Shown piece after piece: positions 6,533 to 36,227 of a stretch of 36,227 bases of DNA. How positions within the stretch are numbered: position 1 is the first letter of the stretch; every line of letters starts with the position of its first letter. Location: positions 1 to 36,227 of IMG/VR virus record IMGVR_UViG_3300009703_000047, one strand, 5' to 3'. The stretch comes from a virus. Position numbers and translations under genes: made by a program. The notes beneath the pieces were generated by a model. It was given only the letters and a program-made list of their open reading frames with translations. It ran no database searches and was not told where the DNA came from.

Positions 6533-8632
6533 TTAACCTCCTACCTCTGTAAATGCAACTCCACTTCTTGTGGCAATAAAGTTAAGAGTTACAAAGTTAA
6601 TTGAACGAGCAGGTCTGACAAAGATATCAGCAACAAACTCATTTCTATCTATTACTGAAGCTGTGTTATTTGTAGAATCTGCAATAACATTAAATGCTGA
6701 TATTCCTCTTCTACCTTGAATATCTCTCAAGAAAGGTTCTACAAGATTTCTAAATTGTGCTCTTGTAAATTCATCATTGAATTCAAAGAGTTGAAACTTA
6801 GCTGCAGTTGCGATAGATTTTTCTAATAATAAGAATAATCTTCTTACGTTTATTCTATCAAATGCGCTTGGTGTTGATAATGCAGTTTTATCTCCGAATA
6901 GAACAACACCTTGACCTGGAAAGTTTACAACTGGGTTAATTCTTGCTCTATATAAATCATCTCTTTGAGATTGATTTGGATTAAATGCTAACTTAATCGC
7001 ACCTCTTATGTTTCCTCTATTGAAACCTGCAGGTGAGAAAAATGCATCAGCAATTTGATCTGTAAATGCACAAAGTCCAGCGACATCAGCATTTAATGGT
7101 ACAAATCTAAATACATCATTGTATTTGTCGTACATATATTTGTAACCACTATCAAATACAACATATGAAGATGATGGGCATAAATCAAATGCTGTTTTAA
7201 CATTTGAACTTTGTGTTATATTACTTGCAACTCCAACAACGGCAGAACGATATGGTGATACAAATGCAACACAATCTCTACGTTTCTCTACTAATTTTGT
7301 TATCATTGTTACATGAGTGTCTTGTCCACTAGATGAGTCTGTAACTGCACTTGATGAACCACCTATAACTAAGTTAATGTCAATTGACTCTTGGTCATCA
7401 AATTTATCATATGCAGTTTCAATTTCTCCAGCTGTTACTGCGTAATCATCAGCACCACTTTGAAGATTAGTTGCTGTAGGTGAAGTTAAATCAGAATATG
7501 CGGCTGTGCCTGTTTCTAATGTGATATTATCATTTTGATCGACACTACCTGCGGCCGATGAATCCATAACGATATTATCTCCATTGTCTGTTCCAGCACC
7601 ATCTGTTCCATCTATGATGATAGAACCTGAACCTCCATCAATATCTGTTCCAAAATTAGTTCCACCTGTATTATGGTCCATCCAAAAAACAAATTCAGAT
7701 TGTCTATAAATTACATCTGGGTAATATATTGAGTCACCTTGTGGCGACTTTGCATTTGGATTAACTGAAAGAGAAGCAAAAGTTTCTAATATAGCATTTG
7801 TTCTTTGACCATTAGCATCTACTGAAAATCCATTTATTTTTCCGAGTCTATCATAAACTACGATATGAATTTCGTCTAATGTTCCTCTGTTATTTTGTGT
7901 TGCAAAAGATGATGTGCCTGGAGCTGCATCAAATAAATCATAGAATCTCCATCTTCTTCTGACATTAGTGCCTGAAGCAACTGTTGATTGCAATCCACCG
8001 CCGTTAGGGTCATCTTTTAATTTTATTGTTAGTGTTGGTGTACCTGTTGAAACGGCGGTTACTTCGTATTCACTACCATCTGTTTCACCAAAATTTACTA
8101 TATCTCCAACATTGAAACCTGTTGCAGATGTAATTGAAATTACTGTTTGTCCTACTGCTTCTTCAGCAGAGGTTGTTGTCTTTGCAGTTTCTTCATATGC
8201 AGTTGAACTTGCACAAATTGAAACTCCTAATCCATTTCCGTGTGTTCCAGCACTTCTTGCTGCCCACTCACCAACTGAACCTTGACCCTCTGAAAAACTT
8301 TCTAGATAATGATCTGTATCTCTAATTAATAAACCTGTACTACCAGATGCAACTGCGTTAGTCACACCAGACTCTATACGAACAACTCTTAATGCATTAG
8401 AGTATTGTAAAAAGTTAGCTGCAGAAAACCAATTTTCGTATGAGTTATTTGTAGATTGGGGTTTACCAAATGTTTTTACTAAGTCCTCTTCAGAAGTGAT
8501 GTTAACTACTGTACCCACAGGTCCTTTTTCAAAGGCAGCTGCAATGGCACCAATTGATGTTGCAACAGCTGGAACTACATTAGTTAAATCTATTTCTTTT
8601 ACCTGAACACCAGGTGAGACCAAAAATGCCAT
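6533..8632 (-). CDS. 18: Contractile tail sheath protein gp18
   Basis: This is the T4-type sheath subunit, which contracts to drive the tube into the cell. The 699-residue product (T4: 659) starts with the conserved FLVSPGVQVKEIDLTN and ends with the sheath core (AFDRINVRRLFLLLEKSIA, then FNVIADSTNN and RPARSINFVTLNFIATRSG). Residues about 330-385 form an insertion in the variable middle part that holds one copy of the window's repeated module (IIIDGTDGAGTDNGDNIVMD), followed by a second, weaker strand pair. In T4 the middle domains face outward, so the insertion is probably exposed; this is inference. GAGGAGA precedes the ATG, and an exact late octamer lies at 8665-8672. Confidence 0.97.
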   Translation of the reverse strand: MAFLVSPGVQVKEIDLTNVVPAVATSIGAIAAAFEKGPVGTVVNITSEEDLVKTFGKPQSTNNSYENWFSAANFLQYSNALRVVRIESGVTNAVASGSTGLLIRDTDHYLESFSEGQGSVGEWAARSAGTHGNGLGVSICASSTAYEETAKTTTSAEEAVGQTVISITSATGFNVGDIVNFGETDGSEYEVTAVSTGTPTLTIKLKDDPNGGGLQSTVASGTNVRRRWRFYDLFDAAPGTSSFATQNNRGTLDEIHIVVYDRLGKINGFSVDANGQRTNAILETFASLSVNPNAKSPQGDSIYYPDVIYRQSEFVFWMDHNTGGTNFGTDIDGGSGSIIIDGTDGAGTDNGDNIVMDSSAAGSVDQNDNITLETGTAAYSDLTSPTATNLQSGADDYAVTAGEIETAYDKFDDQESIDINLVIGGSSSAVTDSSSGQDTHVTMITKLVEKRRDCVAFVSPYRSAVVGVASNITQSSNVKTAFDLCPSSSYVVFDSGYKYMYDKYNDVFRFVPLNADVAGLCAFTDQIADAFFSPAGFNRGNIRGAIKLAFNPNQSQRDDLYRARINPVVNFPGQGVVLFGDKTALSTPSAFDRINVRRLFLLLEKSIATAAKFQLFEFNDEFTRAQFRNLVEPFLRDIQGRRGISAFNVIADSTNNTASVIDRNEFVADIFVRPARSINFVTLNFIATRSGVAFTEVGG
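7562..7622 (-). repeat. DGTD module copy in sheath gp18
   Basis: This segment encodes IIDGTDGAGTDNGDNIVMD, one copy of the dispersed hLDGTDxSSTNAGDxIhLE module. It lies in the variable central part of the sheath, between conserved N- and C-terminal sheath blocks. The Asp/Gly/Asn-rich turn is flanked by short hydrophobic strands. Confidence 0.75.
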
Positions 8633-8672: not shown

Positions 8673-8715
8673 AATTTTAATATTTGAAATCAATGGTTTT
8701 ATATACCATTAGTCA

Positions 8716-8723
8716 TATAAATA
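8716..8723 (+). promoter_or_regulatory. T4-type late promoter for the HNH-like gene
   Basis: An exact plus-strand TATAAATA lies five bases before the ATG at 8729. With T4 late-promoter spacing the RNA would begin at or next to that ATG, giving a leaderless or nearly leaderless message. An alternative is that the motif is chance and the gene starts further upstream (TTG 8684 or ATG 8693). Confidence 0.6.
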
Positions 8724-8728
8724 ATCGT

Positions 8729-9028
8729 ATGGAAACACATTACCAAAAATATAAAGAAACTATTAAAAAAGTAGCTCGTAGACATTACAATAAAAGGGGG
8801 TCTTGGTTAAACAAAACCTTGGCAAATAAATCTTGTAGTTATTGTGGTGAAAGCGAAACTGTGTGTTTAAAATTCCATCCTCATGATTCTGATATTCGTA
8901 AACAATCAAAGAGAGTTGGAATTAATGAAGAAAGCAGAAAAGAGATAAATGAACTTATTAATAATTGTAAAGTTGTGTGTTCAAACTGTTGGATAAAGTT
9001 AGATAATGATCTTATTGAAATTATTTAA
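8729..9028 (+). CDS. HNH-like zinc-binding protein, possibly inactive homing endonuclease
   Basis: The product has 99 residues from the ATG at 8729; in-frame ATG 8693 or TTG 8684 would add 12 or 15. Two zinc-type Cys pairs are visible, CSYC (36-39) and CSNC (84-87), spaced as in phage HNH endonucleases. FHPHD (49-53) stands where the first catalytic His block normally lies, and an Asn (93) follows the second pair. The usual C-x-x-C-H ending is here C-S-N-C-W, so one expected His is missing and nuclease activity is doubtful. The N-terminus is basic (KKVARRHYNKRG), consistent with DNA binding. It lies on the opposite strand between gp18 and gp17, next to the BMP cargo gene, a typical place for a homing-type insertion. 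No good ribosome binding site was seen before any candidate start. Confidence 0.65.
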   Translation: METHYQKYKETIKKVARRHYNKRGSWLNKTLANKSCSYCGESETVCLKFHPHDSDIRKQSKRVGINEESRKEINELINNCKVVCSNCWIKLDNDLIEII

Positions 9029-13364: not shown

Positions 13365-13711
13365 TATTTCTCCTTTAACATTCTTTGTAATTCAGCAGTT
13401 GAACCTACAAATAATGCATTAGTAACATTTTTTGGTGCATCATTTGGTACTTCTTTTAGTTTTTTCATTTTAGTTTGTAAATCGCCGAGTTTTTCTGTAA
13501 CATCTCCAACTTGTTTTATTAATTGTCCAGCAACCTCATATGCTCTAGGGTGCTGACTTTGTTGGGCTAAATCTAAAATACCTTGTATCGCATCTTGACC
13601 TCTCTCAACTAAGTTGTAAAAGTTCTGTCTTTGATACTCATAATCTCTATCAACATCTGGTGTTGAATCTATTTGATTAGTTTGATATAATTTTTCTGTT
13701 CCGTTACTCAT
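13364..13711 (-). CDS. 16: Terminase small subunit gp16
   Basis: This 115-residue helical protein matches the T4-like small terminase, which regulates gp17 and recognises DNA for packaging. The family pattern is clear: DYEYQRQNFYNLVERGQDAI, then GILDLAQQSQHPRAYEVAGQ followed by LIKQVGDVTEKLGDLQ, and the C-terminal LFVGSTAELQRMLK. T4 gp16 has 164 residues, so this is a compact form. Its ATG overlaps the stop of the oxygenase gene (TAATG). In T4, gp16 and gp17 are adjacent; here four small genes separate them. Confidence 0.93.
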   Translation of the reverse strand: MSNGTEKLYQTNQIDSTPDVDRDYEYQRQNFYNLVERGQDAIQGILDLAQQSQHPRAYEVAGQLIKQVGDVTEKLGDLQTKMKKLKEVPNDAPKNVTNALFVGSTAELQRMLKEK

Positions 13712-14274
13712 TAATCCATTTTACCTTCCTCTGGGTATAACCACCAACCCGTTGATATATATTTAGATTGATGATGAACTGGGTTTCCTCTATGTTGCCA
13801 AGGAAATGCGGCTGGAAATATTGCCATCATACCTTTTTTAGGTTGTACTCTAATATTTTCTAACAAAAATTCTGTTTCTCCCTCATTTTTCTTTATATCG
13901 TTTAGATATAATGTCCAAACTAAAACTCTACGAATATTTTTGTAGTGAGATATCTCTGAATGAAAATTATGAAATCCACCACCTTTGGGGTCTGTTTTTT
14001 GTATTTTAGTTTCTTTTGATATAAGTTTTTGATTCCCCCTATAAACATAAGGAAACTCCTCTAGATATAAATCTAAAGTTTTTCTTTTTACAATTTCTAT
14101 TTTATTATAAAGAGAAGAATCTATTGACACCCACTTTTGTAAATCTTTTCTTGTATCTCTATTTGCTGAAACAGTTTTAGAATCTTTATCTGACTCAAAC
14201 CAATCTAACATCTCTTGAACTAATTCATCTGAGGCTGCATTGTTATAAATTCTACAAAAATCACTTAATTTCAT
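13711..14274 (-). CDS. 2OG-Fe(II) oxygenase, prolyl-4-hydroxylase-like
   Basis: This 187-residue protein resembles small 2-oxoglutarate/Fe(II) dioxygenases common in marine T4-like phages. The iron site appears as H-x-E (His105-Ser-Glu107 in GGGFHNFHSE) plus His161 in PWQHRGNP, and Lys171 in SKYISTGWW sits where the 2-oxoglutarate-binding basic residue is expected. Other family blocks are RVLVWTLYLND and EGETEFLLENIRVQPKKGM. Glu instead of Asp in the metal triad is known in related phage and bacterial proteins. AAGGAG precedes the ATG. It is the last gene of the three-enzyme cassette inserted between gp15 and gp16. Its substrate is unknown. Confidence 0.85.
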   Translation of the reverse strand: MKLSDFCRIYNNAASDELVQEMLDWFESDKDSKTVSANRDTRKDLQKWVSIDSSLYNKIEIVKRKTLDLYLEEFPYVYRGNQKLISKETKIQKTDPKGGGFHNFHSEISHYKNIRRVLVWTLYLNDIKKNEGETEFLLENIRVQPKKGMMAIFPAAFPWQHRGNPVHHQSKYISTGWWLYPEEGKMD

Positions 14275-14277
14275 ATT

Positions 14278-14868
14278 TTACTCCTTGTAAATAAAAATAG
14301 GGTCTAATTTTTTATCTTTTTCAATTAACTCATATCCAATTGGAAATAATAATTTTTTTAAATTTTTTCTTTTTATTTCATTATCTAATTTTATTATCTC
14401 TACTTGTAAAGTTGGTTTATATTTTTTAATTGTTTCTATCCCACCAAGTATGATATCATATTCACTACCCTCTGCATCTATTTTAATAAAATTGGGTTCT
14501 AATTTATATGAATCTAATTTTTTTGTTGACCTAATAGTTTTTATAATATTAGATTTATATCCTTTTTCTTTCCATCTACTAAAATTTTCTTTATAAAAAG
14601 TAGATAATCCTTTATGAATTGTGTCTATGTAAAATTCTTTATATGAATCTGTTGAATGTAATGCTTGATTGTAATATATAAATTTTTCATCCTCTATTAA
14701 TTCTACATATGGATGACAATCAAATGCAACAACTTTTTCAAAGGCTTTTATATAAATTCTAGAGTGACTACCATTACAATATCCTATATCAACACAATTT
14801 TTAAATTCTTTTTGATATTCTAAATGTATATTTAGAGCATGAAAAATATTATCATCATCTTTTTTCAA
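14278..14868 (-). CDS. FkbM-family methyltransferase
   Basis: This 196-residue SAM-dependent methyltransferase has the FkbM pattern: motif I NCVDIGYCNGSHS (24-36), the acidic end of strand 2 VVAFDCHP (46-53), and the signature KLEPNFIKIDAEGSEYDIILGG (in two parts, 122-143). FkbM enzymes usually O-methylate sugars or polyketides. The start is TTG at 14868, whose last bases overlap the upstream TGA (TTGA); GGAAG lies just before it and no in-frame ATG follows soon. Together with the radical SAM and oxygenase genes it suggests modification of a glycan or other small acceptor. Confidence 0.87.
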   Translation of the reverse strand: MKKDDDNIFHALNIHLEYQKEFKNCVDIGYCNGSHSRIYIKAFEKVVAFDCHPYVELIEDEKFIYYNQALHSTDSYKEFYIDTIHKGLSTFYKENFSRWKEKGYKSNIIKTIRSTKKLDSYKLEPNFIKIDAEGSEYDIILGGIETIKKYKPTLQVEIIKLDNEIKRKNLKKLLFPIGYELIEKDKKLDPIFIYKE

Positions 14869-15794
14869 GTTCTTCCTGCTTTCATAAAAGTTCTGGTGCT
14901 TGTTTTGCCTCCTCTACGACCACAATATGTTTTACATATCTCGGGTGCATTTTCTGGATTATCTTTTAACATTTTATGAAAATCAATCCATTCTTTTGAG
15001 TTAATAATATCATTTACACTTTTCACATTACCTATACTAAATTTATCATCTGTTAGTTCTGGCAAAAAACTTAAATGTTGTTGCCCTGGTTGCCAATACC
15101 AACAACAAGGTAACAGTTTTCCTTGAAAATCCCAACCATATTCTTTATTTTTTAAACAGGCAGGATCAAATGTGTTTAAGTTTTGTTTTAATGTAAACCC
15201 CGTTTCTGGCTTTAGTGGATTCTCATCATCAAACCTTGACGATTCAATTAATAAAAATTCCATATTTTCGTCAACAGCCATTCCGTAGGCCTCAAAACTG
15301 TCATCCTCATTGTAATCAAAGACTATATATTGCCAAGAAACAAAAATTCCCATAGAAACACCAAGTTTCATCATTTCATATAACTTATTTCCATCTTGAT
15401 TGACACGATATTTGTGACTATCTTTTGGTAAACCATCTAATCCAAAAATCCATTTTGCATTTTTGTTTGCCTCAAATGCTTTTATATACCATTCTTTTGG
15501 TTGATGTGATGCTGATGTGTGAATTTGTACTTGAATATTTCTTTGATCACATAACTCTAACATTCTTATAAAGTTAGGATTGAAAACTGGGTCAGATATA
15601 TTTCCACAAAAAAGAATTCTTTCAAAATAATCTGCGATTTTTACAAAATCTTCAAATGATAAATCATTTTTTGGAATTTTTTGATTATGTTTAACATACC
15701 ACTGGCGATCACAACCACTACAACTTAAAGTGCATTTAGAAGATATGTCTAAATTTATTGCTTTTTCTCTACTTATCTGTTCCACTTGTTTCAT
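14865..15794 (-). CDS. Radical SAM protein with SPASM-like C-terminus
   Basis: From the ATG at 15794 the product has 309 residues; a TTG at 15815 and an ATG at 15809 are other in-frame options. The [4Fe-4S]-SAM motif C-T-L-S-C-S-G-C (CxxxCxxC) lies at residues 21-28 after NLDISSK. The C-terminal part has more Cys (PACLKNKE, LLPCCWYW, CKTYCGRRGG), as in SPASM or twitch domains that bind extra iron-sulfur clusters. Such enzymes modify peptides, sugars or cofactors; the substrate here is unknown. The gene overlaps gp15 by 26 bases and the methyltransferase by 4, so it is tightly built into the late neck operon. Confidence 0.88.
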   Translation of the reverse strand: MKQVEQISREKAINLDISSKCTLSCSGCDRQWYVKHNQKIPKNDLSFEDFVKIADYFERILFCGNISDPVFNPNFIRMLELCDQRNIQVQIHTSASHQPKEWYIKAFEANKNAKWIFGLDGLPKDSHKYRVNQDGNKLYEMMKLGVSMGIFVSWQYIVFDYNEDDSFEAYGMAVDENMEFLLIESSRFDDENPLKPETGFTLKQNLNTFDPACLKNKEYGWDFQGKLLPCCWYWQPGQQHLSFLPELTDDKFSIGNVKSVNDIINSKEWIDFHKMLKDNPENAPEICKTYCGRRGGKTSTRTFMKAGRT

Positions 15795-16575
15795 CAAAAT
15801 TCTTCGCATCCTCAAAGAAACTTATTGTTTCATTAAATCCAAAATCATCATCAGCAGTAGCTGTAGTTGGGTTTGGTGTTACTGTGATTCGTTGTTCTCT
15901 CGTAGGTTGTACCTCTGGTAAATTACTATATTGATCAACTTGAACTTGTTTAATAATTTTTGAATCTGTAACTGGTCCATAAAGATAAAATTTAGAAGTA
16001 AATCCTAAAGTATAGATTATTGCTCTTCTTTCTGTGAATTCTCCACGATAACTATCCTCATAAGATATAGAATTTAAAACAATGGGAACATCTCTTTTAA
16101 TTCCCATTTCAGGTATATCATTTATTGTAACAGTATAATCTGGTTGAAAGTATGGGAGTATTTGTTCTATCATTTGTAATGCATCATCTGATTGTTTTGC
16201 CATAGCATATAACTCAAAATCTAAATTATATGGAACTGGCATAAATTGACTATCTAGTTTTGATGTGACACCTGTTGTTCCTTGTACCTTTTTAAATTTT
16301 TGAACTCTGTTTAATTTTCTTGTGGAATCATAAGTTAAGTTTTGTATTTCAAATGCAAGTCTTGGTAAAGTAATTGCTACTTTACTATCTAAATTTGCAT
16401 CTTGATCTAATCTTGCAAGAAATTTTTGTTTCGGGCCATATGCAAGTGGAACTTTCATTTTTTGGACCACTGCTCCACTATTATTTTTTCTGACTAAATT
16501 TATGTTATTAAATATTGTACCAAAGGTTACAATTATTTTTCTAATGGTTTCGTGATAGAATTGTTGTCCTAACAT
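15769..16575 (-). CDS. 15: Tail sheath stabiliser / completion protein gp15
   Basis: This 268-residue protein (T4 gp15: 272) caps the tail and joins it to the neck. The start MLGQQFYHETIRKIIVTFGT followed by IFNNI, and KMKVPLAYGPKQKFLARLDQ, are hallmark gp15 blocks. LPRLAFEIQNLTYDSTRKLN and the QIEQILPYFQPDYTV-like region (MIEQILPYFQPDYTVTIND) follow. The C-terminal 40 residues are acidic. The ATG overlaps the gp14 stop (TAATG). Its 3' end is overlapped by the radical SAM gene. Confidence 0.96.
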   Translation of the reverse strand: MLGQQFYHETIRKIIVTFGTIFNNINLVRKNNSGAVVQKMKVPLAYGPKQKFLARLDQDANLDSKVAITLPRLAFEIQNLTYDSTRKLNRVQKFKKVQGTTGVTSKLDSQFMPVPYNLDFELYAMAKQSDDALQMIEQILPYFQPDYTVTINDIPEMGIKRDVPIVLNSISYEDSYRGEFTERRAIIYTLGFTSKFYLYGPVTDSKIIKQVQVDQYSNLPEVQPTREQRITVTPNPTTATADDDFGFNETISFFEDAKNFDETSGTDK

Positions 16576-17684
16576 TATGTGCTCCCTACATCACCGAATG
16601 GATTTGTTTCACTAAAATCTAAAATAGAATCATCAGCTGCATCAAATTGTTCATTCTGTGCGGTTGTATCTGTAGTACCATCTCCAACTTTGTATTCCTC
16701 TTGAAGTAAGAATGAGGTACCATCTTTTGTTTCTAGTATTATTCTTTCACCAACTGAAGTTGAATCATTTTCATGTAAGATATTATCTCCATCTGTTTCT
16801 TCTAATAACAATCCACCCTCAAAGAATAAGAAAGATTCTAGTGCAACATTTTCGTTGACAGCAGATGATTGTTCTAATGTAAATTGGAAATCTGAACTGT
16901 CTAATCCCAAACCTGACTCTATGGAATCTACTACATCAATACCTGTATCAATCGCTTCTGAACTGTATTCGTATTGTCTACATCTTAATTTATATACTGG
17001 GTTATTATCTAATTGATGAAAAGGTTCATCATGGTCTACAAAACTTATTTCAAACATTTTTGATAATATTGGGTGATAAACTAAATCACCTTCATTTGGT
17101 CTATCTCCACTTGTAGTCGCTGTGTCCATAATTAAATAAAATTCCATGCCACTTTCTTCAGATAATATCTTTGCAGTATTATCATCTTCTAATAAAAAAC
17201 TATCTCCAGCATTAGTTGAAGAACTGTCTGTTCCATCAATAAATATAAAACTTTTTGTTACTGTGCTTAATGTTGATGACAAAGTGGTTTGATTTAACGA
17301 CCCTGCTTCCAATAATATAGAACCGCCAGTAGAGCCAGTTCCATCTTCAAGTGTAATCTGACTATCTAATTCTTTAAATCTATCTTGATGAAGAACAAAG
17401 GTTACCTCGTTTCTATTCTCTAATCCAAATTGACTCATTATTTCTTTTTCGCCAGCATATCCACCAGAACCATCTTCAACATACATTTCTATTGGGTGTT
17501 GTCTTGTAAATTTAGATAAAGAATCTTCACCCAAAATATCATCTCTTGCAACAAGAGTTCTATCCATGTAATAAACATCATGGCCATAAATCTGTATTGC
17601 CTCTTTAATCAAATCACTATAAAGATTTCTTTCAGCCTTTATTGAATGAAGGTTGTTCGTATGAAATACTGAATTAACTGCCAT
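16575..17684 (-). CDS. 14: Neck protein gp14 with inserted repeat modules
   Basis: This is the T4-type neck protein, needed for joining head and tail. Family blocks are the N-terminal VFHTNNLHSIKAERNLYSDL with EAIQIYGHDVYYMDRTLV, FGLENRNEVTFVLHQDRF, GDLVYHPILSKMFEISFVDH and PFHQLDNNPVYKLRCRQYEY. At 369 residues it is over 100 longer than T4 gp14 (256). The excess is two insertions, at about 111-178 and 278-332, made of ILLE/LLLEE strands and one DGTD module (IFIDGTDSSSTNAGDSFLLE, 147-166). The first insertion splits the conserved blocks, so it was probably added to a standard gp14. GGGAT precedes the ATG. Confidence 0.94.
   Translation of the reverse strand: MAVNSVFHTNNLHSIKAERNLYSDLIKEAIQIYGHDVYYMDRTLVARDDILGEDSLSKFTRQHPIEMYVEDGSGGYAGEKEIMSQFGLENRNEVTFVLHQDRFKELDSQITLEDGTGSTGGSILLEAGSLNQTTLSSTLSTVTKSFIFIDGTDSSSTNAGDSFLLEDDNTAKILSEESGMEFYLIMDTATTSGDRPNEGDLVYHPILSKMFEISFVDHDEPFHQLDNNPVYKLRCRQYEYSSEAIDTGIDVVDSIESGLGLDSSDFQFTLEQSSAVNENVALESFLFFEGGLLLEETDGDNILHENDSTSVGERIILETKDGTSFLLQEEYKVGDGTTDTTAQNEQFDAADDSILDFSETNPFGDVGST
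17188..17250 (-). repeat. DGTD module copy in neck gp14
   Basis: This segment encodes IFIDGTDSSSTNAGDSFLLE, one copy of the dispersed module, within the first insertion of gp14. It is flanked by similar hydrophobic-acidic strands (SILLEAG, KILSEESG). Confidence 0.8.
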
Positions 17685-17686
17685 TA

Positions 17687-18499
17687 TTATCCCTTATGGA
17701 GAGTTGCTGGATATTGCATATTTTGTATTTGATCTTCTATGTTTGTAATCTCTTCTTGTGCTTGAGAGTAAATTTCTCCACCATTCATTTCTACTCCACC
17801 TAACATTTGCACACCTTGAAACTTTGATAAATTTGCACCCCATTGTTTTTTAATAAGTGCAGTTGCATATCTTTTTAAATGCATATCATTAAAAACATCT
17901 GTGTATGTTGCTGGGTCTAATTTCCTATAACATTCAATAACGATATAATCACCAGCAGTAACATCTTCATTCCAATCCATATCTAAATATAATCTGTTTT
18001 GATGTTCATAATGTCTTATTGGTATTTCTCCAACTAAAATATGACTTAAAAGGTCTATCTGGTCCATTACCATTTGATAATGTAAAATAGAACTTGATGT
18101 AAAATCATAGATATCATTTAATCTTATTTGATAACGAATATCAAAAAGACCATTCGTAGAAGAATCGTCAAATGGAAAAACTTGAACTACTGACAATACA
18201 CTACTTGGTACAGGTATAAATCCTTTTCCCTCTAACCAATCTGCTGTTATTGATGAAGATGCAGAATCCGTTGCAGTAGTTGTTTCATTCGTTGTGGCTC
18301 TGTCAATTTCTGCCTGAGTCATTTGATGTTTTAGATAAACTTTTTCAACAGAGTCATAATGGTAATGTGCAAAGTATTGAACTGCTTCATCAATCCTATC
18401 ATCAACTTGAGCATCTGTTACGTTAATATCAATAGCACCAAAGCCTAGTGCTCGTAAACAATAATCTTTAAATGTCGATTTTGAATTTGGTATGGCCAT
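17687..18499 (-). CDS. 13: Neck protein gp13
   Basis: This is the T4-type neck protein, which with gp14 completes the head before tail joining. The 270-residue product (T4: 309) starts MAIPNSKSTFKDYCLRALGF and continues with VTDAQVDDRIDEAVQYFAHY and HYDSVEKVYLKHQMTQ, typical of gp13. The C-terminal half has DLLSHILVGEIPIRHYEHQN, LYLDMDWNED and LKRYATALIKKQWGANLSKF. AAGGAAAA precedes the ATG, and an exact late octamer lies at 18518-18525. It is the first gene of a long coupled operon that reaches the unknown gene ending at 10122. Confidence 0.95.
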   Translation of the reverse strand: MAIPNSKSTFKDYCLRALGFGAIDINVTDAQVDDRIDEAVQYFAHYHYDSVEKVYLKHQMTQAEIDRATTNETTTATDSASSSITADWLEGKGFIPVPSSVLSVVQVFPFDDSSTNGLFDIRYQIRLNDIYDFTSSSILHYQMVMDQIDLLSHILVGEIPIRHYEHQNRLYLDMDWNEDVTAGDYIVIECYRKLDPATYTDVFNDMHLKRYATALIKKQWGANLSKFQGVQMLGGVEMNGGEIYSQAQEEITNIEDQIQNMQYPATLHKG

Positions 18500-18517
18500 C
18501 TTTTTTCCTTTATATAC

Positions 18518-18525
18518 TATTTATA
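18518..18525 (-). promoter_or_regulatory. T4-type late promoter for the gp13-gp17 operon
   Basis: An exact minus-strand TATAAATA lies 19 bases before the gp13 ATG, with a predicted start near 18512. No other exact minus-strand octamer was found between here and the inverted repeat at 10121-10169, so this promoter probably serves all 13 genes of the operon, enzyme cassette included. Confidence 0.8.
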
Positions 18526-18529
18526 TGTC

Positions 18530-18558
18530 TTGACATTTGTTATAAAGTAATATATAAT
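18530..18558 (+). promoter_or_regulatory. Perfect consensus sigma-70 promoter
   Basis: TTGACA (18530-18535) and TATAAT (18553-18558) are separated by exactly 17 bases. Transcription would start near 18565, about 24 bases before the first glycosyltransferase-like gene. It is divergent from, and only a few bases away from, the late promoter of gp13. The match to the bacterial housekeeping consensus is complete, which suggests strong early transcription by unmodified host polymerase. Confidence 0.85.
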
Positions 18559-18588
18559 TACTTTGTATTATAACATAAAGAGTATTTA

Positions 18589-19470
18589 ATGTCAAAAGTT
18601 ATTTTTAGTCTATACATAGATATACCTGAAAAAGATTTAGATTTGTTTGACACACATATTTTAAAAGAAAACGAAATATCTAGAAATCTTTTAACTAAAC
18701 AAGCCTTCAGAGATAACTATAATAAACTTATTGAGTGCAAAAAACGATACGCAGAAGCCGTGGGGGCAAAATTTGTATTATATGAGTATAATGAAGATTA
18801 TATAAGTTATAGAAATTATTGGAAAAAACATTTTCCTCAAATAACCGATTATAATATCGTTAACTTTTATAAACTTAAATGTATGTTTGCACTAAATCAT
18901 ATTTATGATGAAGTATTATATTTAGATTTTGATACGATACCAACAACAAACGAAAGTTTTTTTGAAAGATGGGATTTATCAAAAGGTATTGCATTATTAA
19001 ACAATAATAATAAAATAAGAAGTAAAGGTCAAAAAACTCATCAAATAACTGGCACAATTAGAAGCCCGTCTGCAAAATATTATAATGCACAAGCAATGTT
19101 ATTAGAAAATAATTACCCTCTAGATTGTGATGTTGTAAATACTGCGATCATTGGAATGACAAAAAAACATTCTATACAACTTAAATACTTTCATGGTATT
19201 GGAGAAACAATACGGCTAATGGATTATCTAAAAACTGAAGAATATGAAAGTGTATTTCCAAAAAACATCACTAAAATCTTTGGATATGATAATGAAACAA
19301 TATTCTCATATAAAATAAAAACGACAAATACACCTGTTCAATGGTTAGATAATGAATGGCATTATTTTTATGATGCAGAATTACATATTCCTAAAGAAAC
19401 TAAAATAATACACGCCATAAATAAACGATTTGATTTTTGTTGGAGGTTTTATGAAAAACTTGATCTTTAG
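18589..19470 (+). CDS. Glycosyltransferase-like protein, first of a tandem pair
   Basis: This 293-residue protein looks like a GT-A-type glycosyltransferase. The DxD-type motif that binds metal and nucleotide sugar is YLDFDTIPTT (111-120), preceded by a strand-helix region (FYKLKCMFALNHIYDEVL). A later VVNTAIIGM block fits the acceptor side of GT8-like enzymes, and the N-terminal strand is VIFSLYIDI. It is a paralogue of the next gene, with matching blocks in the same order. It is on the plus strand, opposite the structural genes, behind a perfect sigma-70 promoter, with a weak AAAGAG ribosome site. It probably modifies host or phage glycans early in infection; the substrate is unknown. Confidence 0.75.
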   Translation: MSKVIFSLYIDIPEKDLDLFDTHILKENEISRNLLTKQAFRDNYNKLIECKKRYAEAVGAKFVLYEYNEDYISYRNYWKKHFPQITDYNIVNFYKLKCMFALNHIYDEVLYLDFDTIPTTNESFFERWDLSKGIALLNNNNKIRSKGQKTHQITGTIRSPSAKYYNAQAMLLENNYPLDCDVVNTAIIGMTKKHSIQLKYFHGIGETIRLMDYLKTEEYESVFPKNITKIFGYDNETIFSYKIKTTNTPVQWLDNEWHYFYDAELHIPKETKIIHAINKRFDFCWRFYEKLDL

Positions 19471-20825: not shown

Positions 20826-20839
20826 AATATATCCTTATT

Positions 20840-21822: not shown

Positions 21823-22981
21823 AACCATCTCCACCAACACCGTTGATGGTTCTAACGACAGTACCATTGGAGTCAAGAATTTTTAATGTGGAGTTAGTTG
21901 CCTCTGTAAAAAATTCTAGAATGACATCATCACCTGCATTAGAGCCTCCAGCATCAGTTCTATCTAAGATGATGTTATCTCCAGCGTCAGTTGATGAACC
22001 ATCTGTTCCGTTTAGTAATAAAAAATCTCCAAATAATTCTGGTTTTGCAAATAAAGAAAATTTTAAATTTTCATCAATTGCGATAGCAGGGGTTGTTCCT
22101 ACAGCAGAGCCTTTACCTATAAGTAAATCATCTGCACTATCATCTAATGCGATATAAAAATCTTGTGCATTTCCATCAAAAACTATTTTAGTATCTTCTG
22201 CTCCAGCATCTCCAATTGTTAATGTAGGTGTTGTACCATTAATTAACAAAGAGTTTGCAGTTGTAAATGTTCCATTTAATGTTAACCCATCATCAGCTGC
22301 ATGAGTTAAAGTAATTTCATCATCACTCCCAAAAGATAATACAGCACTATCTGATTTTAATCTTACATCATCACCTACTGTTAAGTCAAGAGCAATACCA
22401 ACTCCACCACTAACAATTAATGCACCATCTGTTGTAACAGTATTTGCAGTTGTTGCTGGAATACTTACATTACCTGAACTGTCTATTGAAAATCTTGTGT
22501 TTGTTCCTATTGCAGTTGTGCCTATTTTAAATTTATCTGAATCGCCATCATCTACACCCATTGTAAAAGTTGCAGTACCAGATAATGCAAATGCTAAAAA
22601 CGGGTCTCCATCTGTGGCAGTATTGTTAACTATTAAACCTGTTGTAGAACCTGCACCACCAAGTGTTAAAGATGTATCGGCGGCGTGTGTCAATGTGATA
22701 TCTTGATCATTACCAAATTGAATAGTGCTAGAATCTGCCAAAAATAAATCAGAAAATTCTAAAGTTGCACTTCCTAATGCAGCCCCATCTGCCGTTGTTG
22801 GTGTAACTGAACCTGTAAATACTGCACCTGAAGTTTTTGCCATTGGAATTCCACCAGCGGTAGAACCATCATGGACAACGACAACATCTTTCGTAGTATC
22901 TACAGTAACTTCACCAACTGCACCAGTAAATGAGTTGTGTTGTGTTGTCGTTCCTCTTCTTAATTGTAAAGTAGTTGCCAT
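21818..22981 (-). CDS. Tail-fibre-like protein with Mtd-like N-terminus
   Basis: This 387-residue protein begins with LQLRRGTTTQHNSFTGAVGE, then VTVDTTKDVVVVHDGSTAGG, a pattern typical of the N-terminal domain of the phage major tropism determinant and of marine phage fibres. The middle has two similar beta units: IQFGNDQDITLTHAADTSLT at about 95-114 and LSFGSDDEITLTHAADDGLT at about 213-232. Near the C-terminus lie two adjacent DGTD-type modules (LLLNGTDGSSTDAGDNIILD, then a degenerate RTDAGGSNAGDDVILE). It is likely a receptor-contact or fibre-support protein. AGGGAAT precedes the ATG, with an exact late octamer 21 bases upstream. Confidence 0.8.
   Translation of the reverse strand: MATTLQLRRGTTTQHNSFTGAVGEVTVDTTKDVVVVHDGSTAGGIPMAKTSGAVFTGSVTPTTADGAALGSATLEFSDLFLADSSTIQFGNDQDITLTHAADTSLTLGGAGSTTGLIVNNTATDGDPFLAFALSGTATFTMGVDDGDSDKFKIGTTAIGTNTRFSIDSSGNVSIPATTANTVTTDGALIVSGGVGIALDLTVGDDVRLKSDSAVLSFGSDDEITLTHAADDGLTLNGTFTTANSLLINGTTPTLTIGDAGAEDTKIVFDGNAQDFYIALDDSADDLLIGKGSAVGTTPAIAIDENLKFSLFAKPELFGDFLLLNGTDGSSTDAGDNIILDRTDAGGSNAGDDVILEFFTEATNSTLKILDSNGTVVRTINGVGGDGL
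21920..22025 (-). repeat. Two tandem DGTD modules in the fibre-like protein
   Basis: These two adjacent copies encode LLLNGTDGSSTDAGDNIILD and the variant DRTDAGGSNAGDDVILE. Bases 21987-22009 are identical over 23 positions to 33781-33803 in the large baseplate gene, about 12 kb away. Confidence 0.85.
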
Positions 22982-23001
22982 AGTTATTCCCTAATTCTTT
23001 T

Positions 23002-26500: not shown

Positions 26501-29500
26501 ATTCAACATTTCTCATAACACATTTTGGTCTTAATTCTTTTTTTGCTTGATCTATAGAATTTTTATAATCTATATTTTTAACATCTCCAACTCTATGACC
26601 TGCAAAATTATCCACAATAAAACCAGACTTAAATCTGTTTAATCCATTTGCATCTTGTACTTCAAAAGATTCTGCATCTCTTTCTAATAATGAAAGATTT
26701 GTATAATACTCAAGATTATCAATTCTTGTTTGAAGTTTACCTATGTCTTTCATGGTAAATCTTTGAGTCTTTACTCTTGTTATTGATATGTCAGTAGGTT
26801 TAAAAGTAAATGCTGGTACAAAAAGTTCAGCAAGTTTAAATGCGTTATCCAATTCTTTTGGACTTTGAGGATTTTCAGCAGGTGTGCCTATTACTGTTGA
26901 AAAATTTCCCTTTTCTGTAAGATAGATAGTTGCTCTTTGTGATAGATAATGTTCAAAATCTAAAGTTCCAATTGTATTTGGTTTAGGTGTATCAACAACT
27001 GTTGCACCAGTGCCATCAAACTGTCTGTGAAAAAAGTCAAAAGACTTTGCAGTAATTGTATCTACAGTAGAATCTGTTGATGATGCTCCTGCGATATCTT
27101 CCACAGTAGGTCTAAAATCTATACAATCTGTTAATGGAAATAAACCAGTTGGTTCTGGCTCATCTGGGTCAACTCTTGTTGCAGTATAAGTTGGAATATC
27201 ATCATATTCCATTTGTTTAGCACCTGTGTCTGAATAAGAGTCCACACTAAAGAATGACCCACCAGAATGAGAGAAGAAATCAAATACAACTAATAATCTA
27301 CCTCTAGGTGCTGGGGCATCAGTTTTTCTTACTATTCTTGCAATGTCATAAAAATTATCTCTTTGACCAGTATCTAATGTAAAATTAGAAGTTATTACTT
27401 TAGAACCTGCTGTCAAAGTTCCAACTGTCGCAGTTGCAGCTGAACCTGAACCTGTTATTGTTTCTCCAGCAGTAAAATCTGTTGCACCATTTCCGTGAAC
27501 TAATGTATATGTCATTGGTGATGTTGTATTTACAACTCTTGCAGCTGCACCAGATGTTGCACCAGTAATTCTTTCTCCTCTTGCAAATGTACCAGTAATA
27601 TTTGATATTGTCATTTGAGGAATGGAAGCGTCTGTACTTGTATCTTCAGAATCATATACTGCTTGTAATCTAAAAGCATCTGCACGACCTAAGGATATAT
27701 CTTTATCTGTTGCCTTTGTTCCATAATCGCCTGCGGTTGCACCTAAAACTTTTAATTGTTTAGATAATGTAGTAGTTTTAACTCTTGAAGTAATTGCTGT
27801 TCTTAAAATTGTTGCAGTAAGTTTAACTTTAGCCGCATTTGCTAAAATACTATTGTCTGTAATAGTTATTGTAGATGTACCAGTTCCAGATATTGTGTCT
27901 GCAATATTTACAACATCTCCTTGGCCACCACTTCCAGAACCTGCGGTTAATATTGTTAAGGTATAATCTGCTTGAGTATGTGCAAGAAAAGTTTCTCCAG
28001 AACCAGCAGTAAAAGAAACGACACCTGAGGAATTTGTTGTTCCTATAAATTGGCGTCTTATATTAATTTGTGTATCACTTACACCACTATTATCTGTAGT
28101 TAATAAAGTTTTAACAACTTTTTTAGGAAGTTTATATATTGAAACATTTTTTTCTGACTCTTGAAGAACAGCGGTTGATTCAGATTCAAGAGCAACTGTA
28201 GTAGAATTATCTTCCTCTAAGACTATATTATCTCCAGCGTTTACACTATTTGCATCTGTTCCATCTAAAAGAATTTGGGAAATTACCCCTATTGTTAATG
28301 CAATGTCAGCTGTAAAATCTTGGCCTGCATCAGCATCATCCATAAACAATGAACGAGTATCAGTAAATTTATGTGTTGTTATTTCAGATATTGTTAAATC
28401 TGTATTACCAGAGTCCTCTACTATTTGATCTGTTTCAGAGGAATCAGAAGCAGTAATTTTTTCTCCAGAGCTAAATGCACCAACAACATTTGTTAAAACA
28501 ACAGTTGTGCCAGAGGTTAATGAACCAAAAACAAAACCAGTCGCACCTGAAGTCACACCTTTAACCTGAACACCTCCGTTTGAATGATTTGCAATAAGAG
28601 TCGCACTTGGTGTTCCATTTAATGTTAAATATGTAAATGGTCTTACATCAAAAAGATATAATCTATAAATTGCATCTGTATTTCCTTTTGTGCCTGATTC
28701 ATATTGCATGGTTTTTGCACGACAAACTCCAATTTGTGTGCCAGAGGAACTTCCTCTAGTCACTATTCCATCATCAAATAATCCTATCGTTTTGTACGGT
28801 GTTGTTTCACTAGAAATACTTGAAACATCTGGTTGACCATATACATTTGTAATTTTTACAAAGTTTCCTAATTCTGCATTTATAGCTCCAGCATCTACTG
28901 TATCAAAGTTTCTTGCTTTCGGAACATCTAACCTTGTAGATGCAGTTTTTTCTATTTCATAACCTTTAACATATGCTTTACCAGGTGATACAGATAAAAC
29001 AAAATTAGTTGATGATGCAGTATTACCATCATCTGTAGTATCTCCTATTGAATAAACTCCATCAAAATCTTCACCTTTGACTCTAGATGTTAAAGACTCT
29101 TTTGCCTCAAACTGAAAAGGTCTTACTGTATAATCACCAGATTCATCAAATGTTCTTCTTGCAAGAGTATCTCCTAAAACAGAATATTCTGTAGGTCTAC
29201 TATCAGTTAAAGGTTGACTTACTCTAAGTCTAACTAATTCTATAAAACTAGAATCAGCAATAGATGTTGTATCTAATGATGCAAGTGTTAATGTAATTTT
29301 TAATCTGTGAGCGCCTTTAGCTGCAAAGTTAGATGAACCTGTTGCATTGTCTGTTAGTGAAGTATCTGATTCAGGTGTTTCTAAAGTTTCTGTTATTGTA
29401 AATCCAACTCTTGCATTAACACTTGTTGATGTATCTGAAAGAACTAATGTTTGTTCATCTGCTTGAACAAAAGTTCCTTTTACAAAATATACACCTCCAT

Positions 29501-31592: not shown

Positions 31593-34500
31593 TTAAGATG
31601 CCTTTTTTATAATATATGCACCTCGTACCACAGGTGTCTTTCCTATCTGTATGACATTTAGTGGTAAAGGATTGCGTAAAACTTTTCCATCTTTATTAAA
31701 ATTTAATGTCAAGTTTTCAAAAGATATTTGTCCTACATCCTTTCTTATGTCAGCTTCCTCTAATAAAATACCTTCTTTAAGTAATTCTATATCTGCTGTT
31801 TGAGAACCATCATCAAGAATTAAATCATCACCTGCATTAGTTGACGATCCATCCGTTCCATCTAATATCATAACATCTCCAATCTCAGCTGTTGTATCTT
31901 CTAATTGTACTCTGTCTATTGATTCTTTGTTTAAAGATTTTTCTTGTAATAATAAATTACCATCTTCTAATTCCATTTTAGAGTCATTAGAGCCTGTGTC
32001 ATTTTCCTCCATTATTAAAACTCCATCAACCTCTTGAATAATTCTAAAATTATCTTCATCAACAATAAATGAATTTGCATTAGTGCTACTACTATCCGTT
32101 CCGTTTAATGTAAGAAAACCAGTATCTTCTAATGCAATAGCATCTGGGTCTTTTGCAAGAGCATTATTAATATCTCCTTGACTCTCTATAAATGGTGATA
32201 ATAAACCTGTATCTTCTGTGCCAGTTTCAATTCCAACAAATGAAACCCCACCAACATCTGACTCCAATGCGATATATGTTGTATCATCAAATTCAAGTTT
32301 TATTCTTCCGTCTACAAGTTCTCTTGCCACCATATCTCCATTTTGCGATAATAGTAATCTACTTGGTCTTATTATGTCACTTATCTTTAAATTAAATTCT
32401 GTAGTTAATTGACTTATTGTGAATGTTTCTTGATTTCTAGGTTCATCACTCATTAATTTTTCACCCTCATGAAATTTTATTAGTGACCCGTGTGTAAAAA
32501 TATTACTTCCGTCAGCTAATATTTTTGACAATCCATCTTCTTGAAGAACATTGTCACCAGCATCTGTTCCACTTGCATCTGTTCCGTCTAAAACTATTTC
32601 TACGACTGTCGGTAATGGTTCTATACCATTTAGTACAAGAACTCCATGATTTTCTTTTGGTTCTAAAAGCAAGAGCTCTCCCTCATCTGTTGAACTTGCA
32701 CTTGCATTTAATAAAATATTATCTCCAGCATCAGTACCAAAAATATCTGTTCCATCTAAGAGTAGTGTTCCGAATGTCGCATCTTCTAACATGAAACCAC
32801 TTGTTTCATCAAAAGGGTCATTTCCAAGATGGACAAGTAAATTTTTAGAATTCGCATATGTATTTGGTTTGGAAGAAACTGTTACTTTATTTTCTACTGT
32901 TAATGTTCTCTCATTGTTTACACCTGGAGCAGAAGATGACTCCATCATCATTCTTCCCCCACCATCATCAAATGAAGTTTGTTTAGTTCCACTCTCAAAG
33001 ATAAATTGTTCACGAACAATATTACCATTAGAATCTACATTAAATGATATTATTCCGTGTTCAAGTATTATTTTTCTAGAATCTGTTTCATCTATTATAC
33101 TATCACCTGCGTTACTTGATGAACCATCAGTTCCGTCAAGTATTAGACCATCACCTATAATGACACCATCTTCTTGAAGTATTGTATCTTCTCTGTGACC
33201 AACTCTGTCTGAAACTGGTACGGCAAGTGTTCTTGTTTGAATTCTCTCATCAAAAATAAAATCTAATGTAGATGCAAGAATTGGTGAGAAGGTATCAAGA
33301 CTTGGACTTGAAACAGAGGTACCTGATGCTTGCAATGATGTTGAGATAAGTGTTGCGATAGAAACTTTTCCAAATACAGCAAATCCAGCTGGGTGTACAG
33401 CTTGTTTTAACTCATTGATATATTGTGTCGTTGATTGACCAACTTGTACCTCATATGAAAATTGTTGATAGTAATAGGAATCTTGAATACGATTTAAATC
33501 TTCATTTATTAAACTGTTTATCCCTTTATAGTTTCCTTCACTTGTTGATGTTGTATCAACTGTCAAAGAACCTCTAGATATATCTGCTAATATTACGGTA
33601 CCAGTTGCCCCACCAGAATCTGTTATGACAACATCATTTCCACTAAAGTCTATTAGATTTTCAAAAATTATTTCAGAACCTGCATTGTTAGAAGAACTAT
33701 CCGTTCCATCTATAACAATAAAGTCTGTAGCTGACATTGATGTTACTGAATCTGTTTCACTTACAATTCTACTACCTGCATCAGTTGATGAACCATCTGT
33801 TCCATTTAATAGTAAATGATTACCAAAAGTTTCAAGTTTTAATCTTTGTCCGTCTGTTTCATCTAAAAACTTAGATGTTTCATCAGTAACTAAATTATCA
33901 ATTAATACTTTAGCCCCAACATCTTCTTGTTGTGATGCATTAGATTCCTCAAGAAATACACTATCACCCTCCTCTAATGATAATCTTTGCAAAGGTTGAT
34001 CGGCCGATGCACTTTCCATTTGTATATAACTTACATTTGCAAAACTAGAATCTAAAACTAAATCATCATTCTCATCTGATATTATAGTTAGTCTAGGTAA
34101 AGTCTGTATTATGTTTCCCATACCAGAATGATTTACGCAATAATAGTATAAATCGCCACCAGGCTCTGGGATAACTATTTGAATATACGCACCAGAAGTT
34201 CCAATAGCGATATCAGCAGTAGATTTTGTTACGTTTGTCGTGTATTCTGTTCCACTTCCATGTGTTCCATCTGACGTTAAAGAAAATTTAAGTTGATGGT
34301 TCGCAGTAGATGTCGCATTATATAAAGATGAATCGGATAAATCAAAATAATATGTCCAACCTTCTTTTAATTGTAAATTTGGTTTTTCTATTCCATTGAT
34401 TTCAAAAACATTTTGTTCATAGGTTGTGGAATATTTTACCTTTACTGTTAAATTAACAAATCTTGTTGACTCTATAGAAGATGAAGTTCCATCTAAAATA

Positions 34501-36227
34501 ATATTATCATTTGATGTTCCCTCTATAATTTGTGTATCTTCAAGTAAAAAATCATTACCTGATAAAACAGTACCAGTCAATTCTTCTGTAACAAAAGGTA
34601 AGTTTACTGTACCAGTAAATTCTTGGAACATTCTTTCTACGTTTTCAAATGTCGTTGTTAATAAATTATTTGTTGAATCCCAAGAAACGACAGTACCTGT
34701 ATGACCACTTGAAGCCAAAGTATTATCTTTGGCAAAAGTACCTGTAACATCTTTTAAAATAAAATGTGCGTTAAAAGTCATGTCAGGGATGTCATCTGTA
34801 TTATAATTAAACCCTGCATCATTAATTTTTAAAGAATTGACTGCACCAATATCTGTAGTTAATGGTATGAGTTTTGCACTAGAACCACCTGAAGTTATTG
34901 GCGTTATTGTTGGAAGAGATGTATATCCTTGTCCAAAGTTGGTTAATATAATTTTATTAATAGATGTTGCTTCTGACACAGATAGAGTATCATATTCTAA
35001 AACTAATTTATCTGTGGCCGTACCATGCAAGTCTAAACTTGTTTGGGTATTGTTCATTAATATATTAAATCCAGCATCAGCACCACCACTTGTGGTTCTA
35101 TCTAATAATAATAAATCAACATCGCTATCTGGGTACTCTTGATATGCAGCTGCAGTTGTGGTTAAATTATCTACAGCTCGTTGTGCAGTAGAGGCTGGCA
35201 TATAAAATGTAATGCCTGGAAATTCGTTAAATGTTTGCTCCGTGGCAGAACTATCAGAATCGGCTGCCTTAGCTGTGGTTTCTGTTAAATAAATTGGATA
35301 AAAATATCCTCTTTTACCAGCACTATTTTGAGCAGTTCCATCTGATATAGTTAATCCAGCAGTTCCATAAAGATAAAAAGGTCCATTTAAAACTTCTTTA
35401 CTTTCTAATGCTATATTAAAAGGTTCGTCTATTAATACTGAACCAGATTCTATAAGTATTGTACCTGTGCCTGTAGAATCTGTTCCAGACTCTAATAATA
35501 TTCCTCCACCAATAACCGAAATAAATCCCTCGGCTGGTATGATATCCGTTCCACCTGAAAATAATACTTTCTCTCCAGCTTCATATCCACTCCCTACAGT
35601 ATCTACAAATACCTCACTAATACCTCCACCATTTAGTGTACCAACTTTAACTGAACCAAATCCATTTCCTTTTGAAGAGTCTACTACTAAATCCTCATTT
35701 ACTGTATTTAAAATACCATCATTTGATATTGATGTTGTTGAAATAATATCTTTAATTGTAAAAGATATTTCTGTATCACTTGTAGCAGAGGTTGCAGTAA
35801 TTGTTTCGCCAGATACAAACCCACTTAATGATAAAGTATCTAAATTGATACCAAACTTATAATCCTCTATTGTAAACTCTATGACCGATATTACACCTTG
35901 TTGAAAAGTTGAAACATCAGAAACAGTTGCTGTGGCTTGAGATGTTCCACCTGTAATAACTTTGTTTAATGCTTCTGACCCAGATGAACCAGTTGATGAA
36001 ACTCTTATCTTTACATTCTCTTTCCAATTACCATCAGACATTCTTATCATATATTGATTTGGATATATTATTTCAGAATTTTCTGCAAGCAATAATCTCA
36101 TAAAAAGTTTATGACCCTCTTTAGTTCCTTTTGCAGAATATAAGTCTTTAATACTTTTTACTAAATTTCTTCTTGAAACACCAGATGCTAATGTTTTAGG
36201 TATAGCGTTCATAAAAGAATATTTTAT
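31593..36227 (-). CDS. Large baseplate/tail structural protein, cut by window edge
   Basis: At least 1539 residues are seen, and the frame stays open to the window end, five codons beyond the first in-frame ATG at 36212. Homologous proteins carry a similar IP...LVKxIKDLYxxKGT region inside a longer N-terminus, so the true start is probably outside. The segment RRNLVKSIKDLYSAKGTKEG followed by LFMRLLLAENSEIIYP is typical of very large wedge-linked proteins of marine T4-like phages, which are gp7-like by position next to gp8. VGSGYxxGEKVLF and NFGQGYTSLPTIT units follow. A cupredoxin-like domain lies at about 600-705. At least eight DGTD modules occur, mostly after residue 800. ILLEE-type strands dominate the C-terminal half. 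Confidence 0.8.
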   Translation of the reverse strand: MKYSFMNAIPKTLASGVSRRNLVKSIKDLYSAKGTKEGHKLFMRLLLAENSEIIYPNQYMIRMSDGNWKENVKIRVSSTGSSGSEALNKVITGGTSQATATVSDVSTFQQGVISVIEFTIEDYKFGINLDTLSLSGFVSGETITATSATSDTEISFTIKDIISTTSISNDGILNTVNEDLVVDSSKGNGFGSVKVGTLNGGGISEVFVDTVGSGYEAGEKVLFSGGTDIIPAEGFISVIGGGILLESGTDSTGTGTILIESGSVLIDEPFNIALESKEVLNGPFYLYGTAGLTISDGTAQNSAGKRGYFYPIYLTETTAKAADSDSSATEQTFNEFPGITFYMPASTAQRAVDNLTTTAAAYQEYPDSDVDLLLLDRTTSGGADAGFNILMNNTQTSLDLHGTATDKLVLEYDTLSVSEATSINKIILTNFGQGYTSLPTITPITSGGSSAKLIPLTTDIGAVNSLKINDAGFNYNTDDIPDMTFNAHFILKDVTGTFAKDNTLASSGHTGTVVSWDSTNNLLTTTFENVERMFQEFTGTVNLPFVTEELTGTVLSGNDFLLEDTQIIEGTSNDNIILDGTSSSIESTRFVNLTVKVKYSTTYEQNVFEINGIEKPNLQLKEGWTYYFDLSDSSLYNATSTANHQLKFSLTSDGTHGSGTEYTTNVTKSTADIAIGTSGAYIQIVIPEPGGDLYYYCVNHSGMGNIIQTLPRLTIISDENDDLVLDSSFANVSYIQMESASADQPLQRLSLEEGDSVFLEESNASQQEDVGAKVLIDNLVTDETSKFLDETDGQRLKLETFGNHLLLNGTDGSSTDAGSRIVSETDSVTSMSATDFIVIDGTDSSSNNAGSEIIFENLIDFSGNDVVITDSGGATGTVILADISRGSLTVDTTSTSEGNYKGINSLINEDLNRIQDSYYYQQFSYEVQVGQSTTQYINELKQAVHPAGFAVFGKVSIATLISTSLQASGTSVSSPSLDTFSPILASTLDFIFDERIQTRTLAVPVSDRVGHREDTILQEDGVIIGDGLILDGTDGSSSNAGDSIIDETDSRKIILEHGIISFNVDSNGNIVREQFIFESGTKQTSFDDGGGRMMMESSSAPGVNNERTLTVENKVTVSSKPNTYANSKNLLVHLGNDPFDETSGFMLEDATFGTLLLDGTDIFGTDAGDNILLNASASSTDEGELLLLEPKENHGVLVLNGIEPLPTVVEIVLDGTDASGTDAGDNVLQEDGLSKILADGSNIFTHGSLIKFHEGEKLMSDEPRNQETFTISQLTTEFNLKISDIIRPSRLLLSQNGDMVARELVDGRIKLEFDDTTYIALESDVGGVSFVGIETGTEDTGLLSPFIESQGDINNALAKDPDAIALEDTGFLTLNGTDSSSTNANSFIVDEDNFRIIQEVDGVLIMEENDTGSNDSKMELEDGNLLLQEKSLNKESIDRVQLEDTTAEIGDVMILDGTDGSSTNAGDDLILDDGSQTADIELLKEGILLEEADIRKDVGQISFENLTLNFNKDGKVLRNPLPLNVIQIGKTPVVRGAYIIKKAS
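31819..34510 (-). repeat. Cluster of DGTD modules in the large baseplate gene
   Basis: Clear copies lie near 31819-31880, 32062-32115, 32548-32600, 32704-32765, 33094-33148, 33660-33720 and 33763-33815. A weaker copy lies near 34466-34510, and a diverged one outside this range near 35050-35112 (LLDRTTSGGADAGFNILMN). The shared core is hhLDGTDxSSTxAGDxIhLE. Spacing between copies is irregular, so these are dispersed modules and not a regular tandem array. Confidence 0.85.
34100..34430 (-). other. Cupredoxin-like domain coding segment
   Basis: This part of the large baseplate gene encodes a plastocyanin-type pattern. YYFDLSDSSLYNATSTANHQ, with a His in strand 3, is followed by LKFSLTSDGTHGSGTEYTTN and then LYYYCVNHSGMGNI, with the C-x-x-H-x-x-M spacing of a type-1 copper loop. 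All four usual ligands (His, Cys, His, Met) are present. Similar domains recur in marine phage structural proteins, but copper binding there is not established to my knowledge. Confidence 0.65.

Follow-up and report, generated by a model that had tools for sequence, protein, structure and literature searches.

A short DGTD module at variable sites of unrelated virion proteins in marine T4-like phages

Promiscuous modules are already known from phage virions. Ig-like domains occur in many unrelated virion proteins, the sheath included, vary in presence and have been proposed to serve in binding or stabilization (Fraser et al., 2006, as cited in PMC9230969). The DGTD module described here is new, unnamed in Pfam and much shorter (units of 16-22 residues versus ~100 for the Ig-like domains covered by that citation), and differs from them in that it occupies single loops, occurs in the neck as well and carries a fixed loop sequence under purifying selection. 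Among Ig-type Pfam models the best match to the module was FlgD_ig, which reached 17.3 bits over 22 residues against a cut-off of 27. The hemolysin-type (RTX) beta-roll is similar in consisting of short tandem Asp/Gly-rich repeats followed by a hydrophobic strand, whereas the DGTD module has a 16- rather than a 9-residue step, lacks the GGxGxDxUx pattern and is mostly found in single copies; PF00353 (RTX/HemolysinCabind) gave no reported match to it up to E = 10. The extra domains described for type 2/3 contractile sheaths likewise break into the conserved core of the sheath protein, but they are Ig-like sandwiches or helices (PMC9230969), whereas the DGTD insert of the sheath consists of consecutive 16-residue units located where domain II ends. 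Neither Pfam nor the PDB contained a family or solved structure matching the module, and a search of the open-access PMC literature returned nothing relevant on the motif or on a promiscuous short repeat, although absence from open-access text is no proof that the module has not been seen before.

The phage fragment and its late genes

The late genes in the window, a 36-kb IMG/VR virus record (36,227 nucleotides), are those of a marine T4-like phage and run from left to right as gp23, gp22/21/20/19/18/17/16 (gp19-gp22 assigned by gene order), gp15, gp14, gp13, a short fibre region, VrlC, gp8 and a large baseplate protein truncated by the right end. Pelagibacter phage HTVC008M and Methylophilales phage Melnitz-3, which are both classified in Kyanoviridae, are related to it. 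SAR11 and other streamlined bacteria of the ocean are the hosts of such phages, whose tail structures are, to our knowledge, almost unknown.

The sheath protein gp18 was identified over its whole length by phrog_23 (E 1e-124), by PF04984, PF17482 and PF22671 above cut-off and by T4 gp18 structures; the T4-like neck protein gp14 (head closure Hc2) by a PF11649 match and alignment to T4 gp14; and VrlC by a PF16075 match and its place after gp8 (phrog_438) next door. The position of the large baseplate protein between gp6 and gp8 fits T4 gp7, although it has no sequence match in the PDB, PF23786 stays below cut-off, and T4 gp7 has been described as absent from this phage group (PMC7029224). HTVC008M protein YP_007517921 is its orthologue and carries two modules; the window protein, with seven strong modules, is longer (a 1717-aa ORF in the near-identical contig L285, compared to 1016 aa). 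The papers that we searched do not describe the module as such. Both YP_007517921 (L125, 33435-36485) and phrog_3465 are labelled 'head closure Hc2', but the gene lies behind gp6 and encodes the baseplate protein; the wrong label probably came from repeats common to gp14. A second promiscuous motif, TGTF..GE.VTG.TSGA..V..W, seems to be common to virion proteins, among them the window protein at residues 402-522, where it matches the gp14 family phrog_460, and P-SSM7 gp14 at its C-terminus. In many relatives (L289-L304) the baseplate ORF stops ~300-400 residues earlier and the match resumes in the following stretch, which suggests a split or frameshifted gene.

Several other features of the window deserve mention. 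From VrlC to gp14, the variable region for host recognition (17684-23598) spans only ~6 kb, whereas that of pelagimyophages averages 44.6 kb (PMC7029224); its fibre gene at 21818-22981 begins with an Mtd_N (major tropism determinant) domain, no reverse transcriptase was found among the window ORFs scanned, and a weak glycosyltransferase-8 match lies at 18589-19470 (+). An auxiliary gene unusual for a phage (9102-10112, +) is flanked by gp17 and gp18 but lies on the other strand; it encodes a 336-aa solute-binding protein of the PnrA/BMP family (PF02608, E 1e-35) whose N-terminus is twin-arginine-like. This protein had no PHROG match and no relative among the related loci fetched, and shares only ~25-33% identity with proteins of unannotated faecal phage records. 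An HNH endonuclease is encoded at 8684-9028 (+), and 2OG-Fe(II) oxygenase-like, methyltransferase and radical SAM genes lie in a row at 13711-15815, adjoining the terminase genes.

The DGTD module and its carriers

The preliminary description had reported about 14 copies of a short DGTD module spread through five unrelated virion proteins. A strict pattern for hhLDGTDxSSTNAGDxIhhE matched 12 times in the window, all on the minus strand, and not once in 200 shuffles of the window proteins. A profile seeded with ten copies, from which those of the sheath and VrlC had been left out, recovered both (domain E = 2e-7 and 1e-11, respectively). The total thus comes to 12 strong copies and one weak copy in five late proteins, and the figure of about 14 is fair because the weak copy and a degenerate second unit of the sheath insert add to the 12. 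The coordinates hold, as does the assignment of the copies to sheath, gp14, Mtd_N fibre, VrlC/DUF4815 and baseplate protein (Table 1).

Table 1. Positions of the module and of related elements in the window.
Feature	Position	Strand	Basis or remark
DGTD module SIIIDGTDGAGTDNGDNIVMDS, tail sheath gp18	7559..7624	-	strict pattern and profile
Whole sheath insert, tandem 16-residue units, aa 334-376	7505..7633	-	
DGTD module FIFIDGTDSSSTNAGDSFLLED, neck protein gp14	17184..17249	-	strict pattern and profile
gp14 insertion site, aa ~110-183	17136..17357	-	none/A/B/C states in relatives
gp14 C-terminal region, related hhLE strand repeats, aa 268-335	16680..16883	-	
Mtd_N fibre, first of two tandem modules	21959..22024	-	strict pattern and profile
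Mtd_N fibre, second tandem module (16-residue step), near C-terminus	21911..21976	-	strict pattern and profile
DGTD module, VrlC/DUF4815	28212..28277	-	site variable among orthologues
DGTD module, baseplate protein at T4 gp7 position	31809..31874	-	strict pattern and profile
DGTD module, baseplate protein	32052..32117	-	strict pattern and profile
DGTD module, baseplate protein	32535..32600	-	strict pattern and profile
DGTD module, baseplate protein	32703..32768	-	strict pattern and profile
DGTD module, baseplate protein	33084..33149	-	strict pattern and profile
DGTD module, baseplate protein, directly ahead of conserved domain aa 868-1017	33657..33722	-	
DGTD module, baseplate protein	33753..33818	-	shorter hairpin instead in relatives
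Weak copy LLLDRTTSGGADAGFNILM, baseplate protein	35031..35129	-	E 2e-4; full DGTD module here in several relatives
Small protein, head gene cluster	3418..3852	-	hhLE strands where L030 relative has full DGTD module

Five carriers is correct for the window and an undercount overall. Across 6598 ORFs of related loci the strict pattern matched 464 times (five shuffles: none), and the module was present at ~171 sites of the related contigs collected, counted without redundancy; when the motif was written as a DNA pattern, at least 120 viral contig stretches matched. Most carriers are baseplate proteins at the gp7 position; the others are sheath, VrlC, gp14, several kinds of fibre (including one that bears a C1q domain), a protein encoded next to gp5/gp6 and a head-cluster relative of the small protein at 3418-3852, so that the module is found in at least eight otherwise unrelated virion protein families. 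Carriers that could not be classified mostly have T4-like genes (gp5, gp6, gp8, gp13) as nameable neighbours, except in L086 and L108, where the neighbours are of fibre type only. Among cultured phages, searched up to E = 10, the clear form appeared in HTVC008M only, a count from which BLAST low-complexity masking may have hidden others.

A bacterial origin was rejected on the basis of a pattern scan of 85,000 prokaryote genomes, which returned ten stretches: three (L363, L369, L370) have the motif in a phage-like setting, two of these contigs being T4-like phage sequence as judged by VrlC, and the remaining seven look like chance matches. L363, from the single-cell genome of a marine Acidimicrobiales bacterium, is a module-bearing contig of a T4-like phage that encodes the baseplate protein, gp8 and VrlC, and it hints at a possible host link.

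The 297 distinct sequences gave the consensus G-D-x-h-h-L-[D/N]-G-T-D-[G/S]-S-S-T-[N/D]-A-G-D-x-h-h-x-E, with frequencies conditioned by the regular expression used to collect them. The loop is near-invariant (T3 97% and D4 100% among matches to an expression that itself fixes part of the motif), and D1/N1, T3, D4, N/D9, D12 and E17, which belong to the loop and its flank, are conserved in these matches. Neighbouring copies are most commonly spaced 16 residues apart (24 pairs matching the expression), so each unit starts on the strand that ends the previous one.

Variable sites, descent and selection

In the conserved proteins gp14, sheath and VrlC, the module occupies one hypervariable site each, where relatives have empty sites or shorter hairpins; its placement in insertions of gp14 and at a variable part of gp18 by the preliminary description is thus supported. 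In VrlC it takes up a stretch that varies among orthologues, bounded by GQDFTAD and the conserved KLPK..IKTLLT, and the baseplate protein, with its seven strong modules between 31809 and 33818, shows DGTD loops alternating with short turns at fixed strand positions in relatives. All gp14 inserts fall between T4 gp14 residues 124 and 128. In 66 sequences this site is empty once (Melnitz) and otherwise in state A (29; a short GSILLE element), B (20; A plus the hairpin FIF-DESGEK-VVLE) or C (16; a B-type hairpin with the loop IDGTDSSSTNAGDS), with eight changes on the tree. Between fixed strands, then, one loop is exchanged for another, as in SFIF-DESGEK-VVLE versus SFIF-IDGTDSSSTNAGDS-FLLE, and two contigs (L178 and L156) whose gp14 DNA is near-identical outside the site differ by a clean in-frame hairpin of 78 bases, with no flanking repeats apparent by eye at the junction. 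Window gp14 is 369 aa long compared to 256 in T4-like gp14; the claim that the insert accounts for this extra length is true for much of it, the rest including a longer C-terminal region with hhLE repeats (six hhhE motifs in the protein overall, versus 0.5 expected). The sheath insert, two or three 16-residue units at a single place, is present in 22 of 93 sequences and absent from the other 71, with two changes on the tree, and maps to T4 gp18 ~335-337, at the end of domain II. The two sites are not obligately linked, as L165 has the gp14 loop without the sheath insert and L053 the reverse, which makes a single dock requiring both unlikely.

Copies at the same site in different genomes share 75% amino acid identity, whereas those at other sites of the same genome share 51% and those at unrelated sites 49%. 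Codon identity at shared residues was 0.55 against an expected 0.51, near enough to expectation to indicate that the spread was not recent. The copies are therefore old, kept by site and not homogenized within a genome. The gp14 module had a dN/dS of 0.30, the short hairpin one of 0.12 and the sheath insert one of 0.27, compared to 0.07-0.11 for the protein cores and 0.17 for sheath domains I-II, indicating that the module is under purifying selection, somewhat less strongly than the surface domain. Being inherited by site, not homogenized and constrained, the module is neither low-complexity filler nor mobile DNA.

The preliminary description had likened the module to a beta-hairpin, with which loop-length swapping at fixed strands is consistent; the strongest evidence for a probable hairpin fold comes from such swaps in nature. 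An AlphaFold2 model of gp14 (47 sequences) had a mean pLDDT of 36 and one of baseplate residues 767-1070 (91 sequences) a mean of 57, both too low to compare folds or orientation; in the latter, the first-loop block reached ~71 and was flanked by two short strands, and Foldseek returned no match for this segment model at E <= 0.001.

Candidate roles of the module

We tentatively favour, at somewhat less than even confidence, a reading in which the module is a short cassette folded as a beta-hairpin, with strands hhhL and xIhhE on either side of the loop DGTDxSSTNAGD, whose copies can stack every 16 residues. In marine T4-like phages it has entered single hypervariable loop sites of unrelated virion proteins, namely the baseplate protein at the gp7 position, VrlC, gp18, gp14, small structural proteins and several fibres. 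Each site then passes on its own copy vertically, with occasional gain, loss or swap for a shorter hairpin, and the cassette may act as a rigid structural or docking contact, by beta-edge pairing or as a stalk joining neighbouring tail and fibre components. This role is favoured because the loop barely varies, is under purifying selection and occurs on fibres as well as on the components to which they attach, a near-invariant loop fitting a structural role more than receptor binding; against it stands the dispensability of the module in many relatives. The conserved Asp/Asn/Ser/Thr loop may in addition be stiffened by Ca2+ or Mg2+ from seawater, which its acidic, hydroxyl-rich composition makes plausible. 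A stronger version, in which the modules form a common plug-and-socket (a beta-hairpin 'Velcro') holding fibres and accessory proteins to baseplate, sheath and neck, seems improbable; if true, one conserved sequence on both partners would allow free exchange of fibres between phages with no redesign of the dock.

A serious rival to a docking contact, though one that we consider rather unlikely, is weak adhesion, with the module as a surface ornament for attachment to the surface of hosts or particles, in the manner of Ig-like domains on other tailed phages. The sheath site supports the earlier proposal of an outward-pointing ornament, since domain II of T4 gp18 (residues 88-97 and 189-345) lies within the solution-exposed, protease-resistant part (PMC3004832); moreover, fibre modules adjoin C1q-like or other binding domains, and an aid to adhesion has been proposed for Ig-like additions to the sheath (PMC9230969). 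The gp14 site, adjoining the Hfq- and gp15-binding face, does not evidently point outward, so that the proposal is supported in part. In T4 gp14 the stopper loop comprises residues 89-112, Hfq is contacted by D112, E113, E134, N150, E148 and S177, and Hfq is ejected once the stopper loops and the C-terminal region engage gp15 (PMC12270204); the insert at 124-128 lies outside the stopper loop and close to E134 in sequence, so that, judging from residue numbers, it may face gp15 instead of the exterior. A near-invariant loop under purifying selection is also unlike typical receptor-binding loops. The conserved D1/N1, T3, D4, N/D9, D12 and E17, together with the abundance of Ca2+ and Mg2+ in seawater, would suit a calcium-binding repeat with an RTX-like, Asp-rich loop and ion-dependent stabilization as its sole role, but the step is 16 residues rather than 9, there is no solved relative, and no Pfam model, RTX included, matched up to E = 10 (HMMER filters drop most weak matches), and we hold this, too, to be improbable. 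Still less credible is neutral loop expansion without function: the module is present or absent between close relatives (L178 versus L156) and occurs in a minority of sheath and gp14 orthologues, but a dN/dS of 0.12-0.30, retention of the same sequence at ~171 distinct sites and the age of the copies at synonymous sites already disfavour it. A DNA-level mobile or gene-converting mini-element copying itself between genes might be suspected from the many copies per genome and their in-frame presence or absence at fixed sites; it is largely refuted, and highly improbable, as copies at other sites of a genome are hardly more alike than those at unrelated sites, codon identity is near expectation, and the L178/L156 junction shows no apparent repeats. 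We therefore rejected DNA-level copying between genes.

Whichever role it plays, a single short motif present at accessory sites of at least eight families of virion proteins provides a handle for annotation, and the common repeats probably explain some wrong 'head closure' labels. The module shows that promiscuity, known for virion domains of ~100 residues, extends to a loop of ~20, and it opens the concrete question of whether one type of hairpin may serve as a general contact element on the contractile tail.
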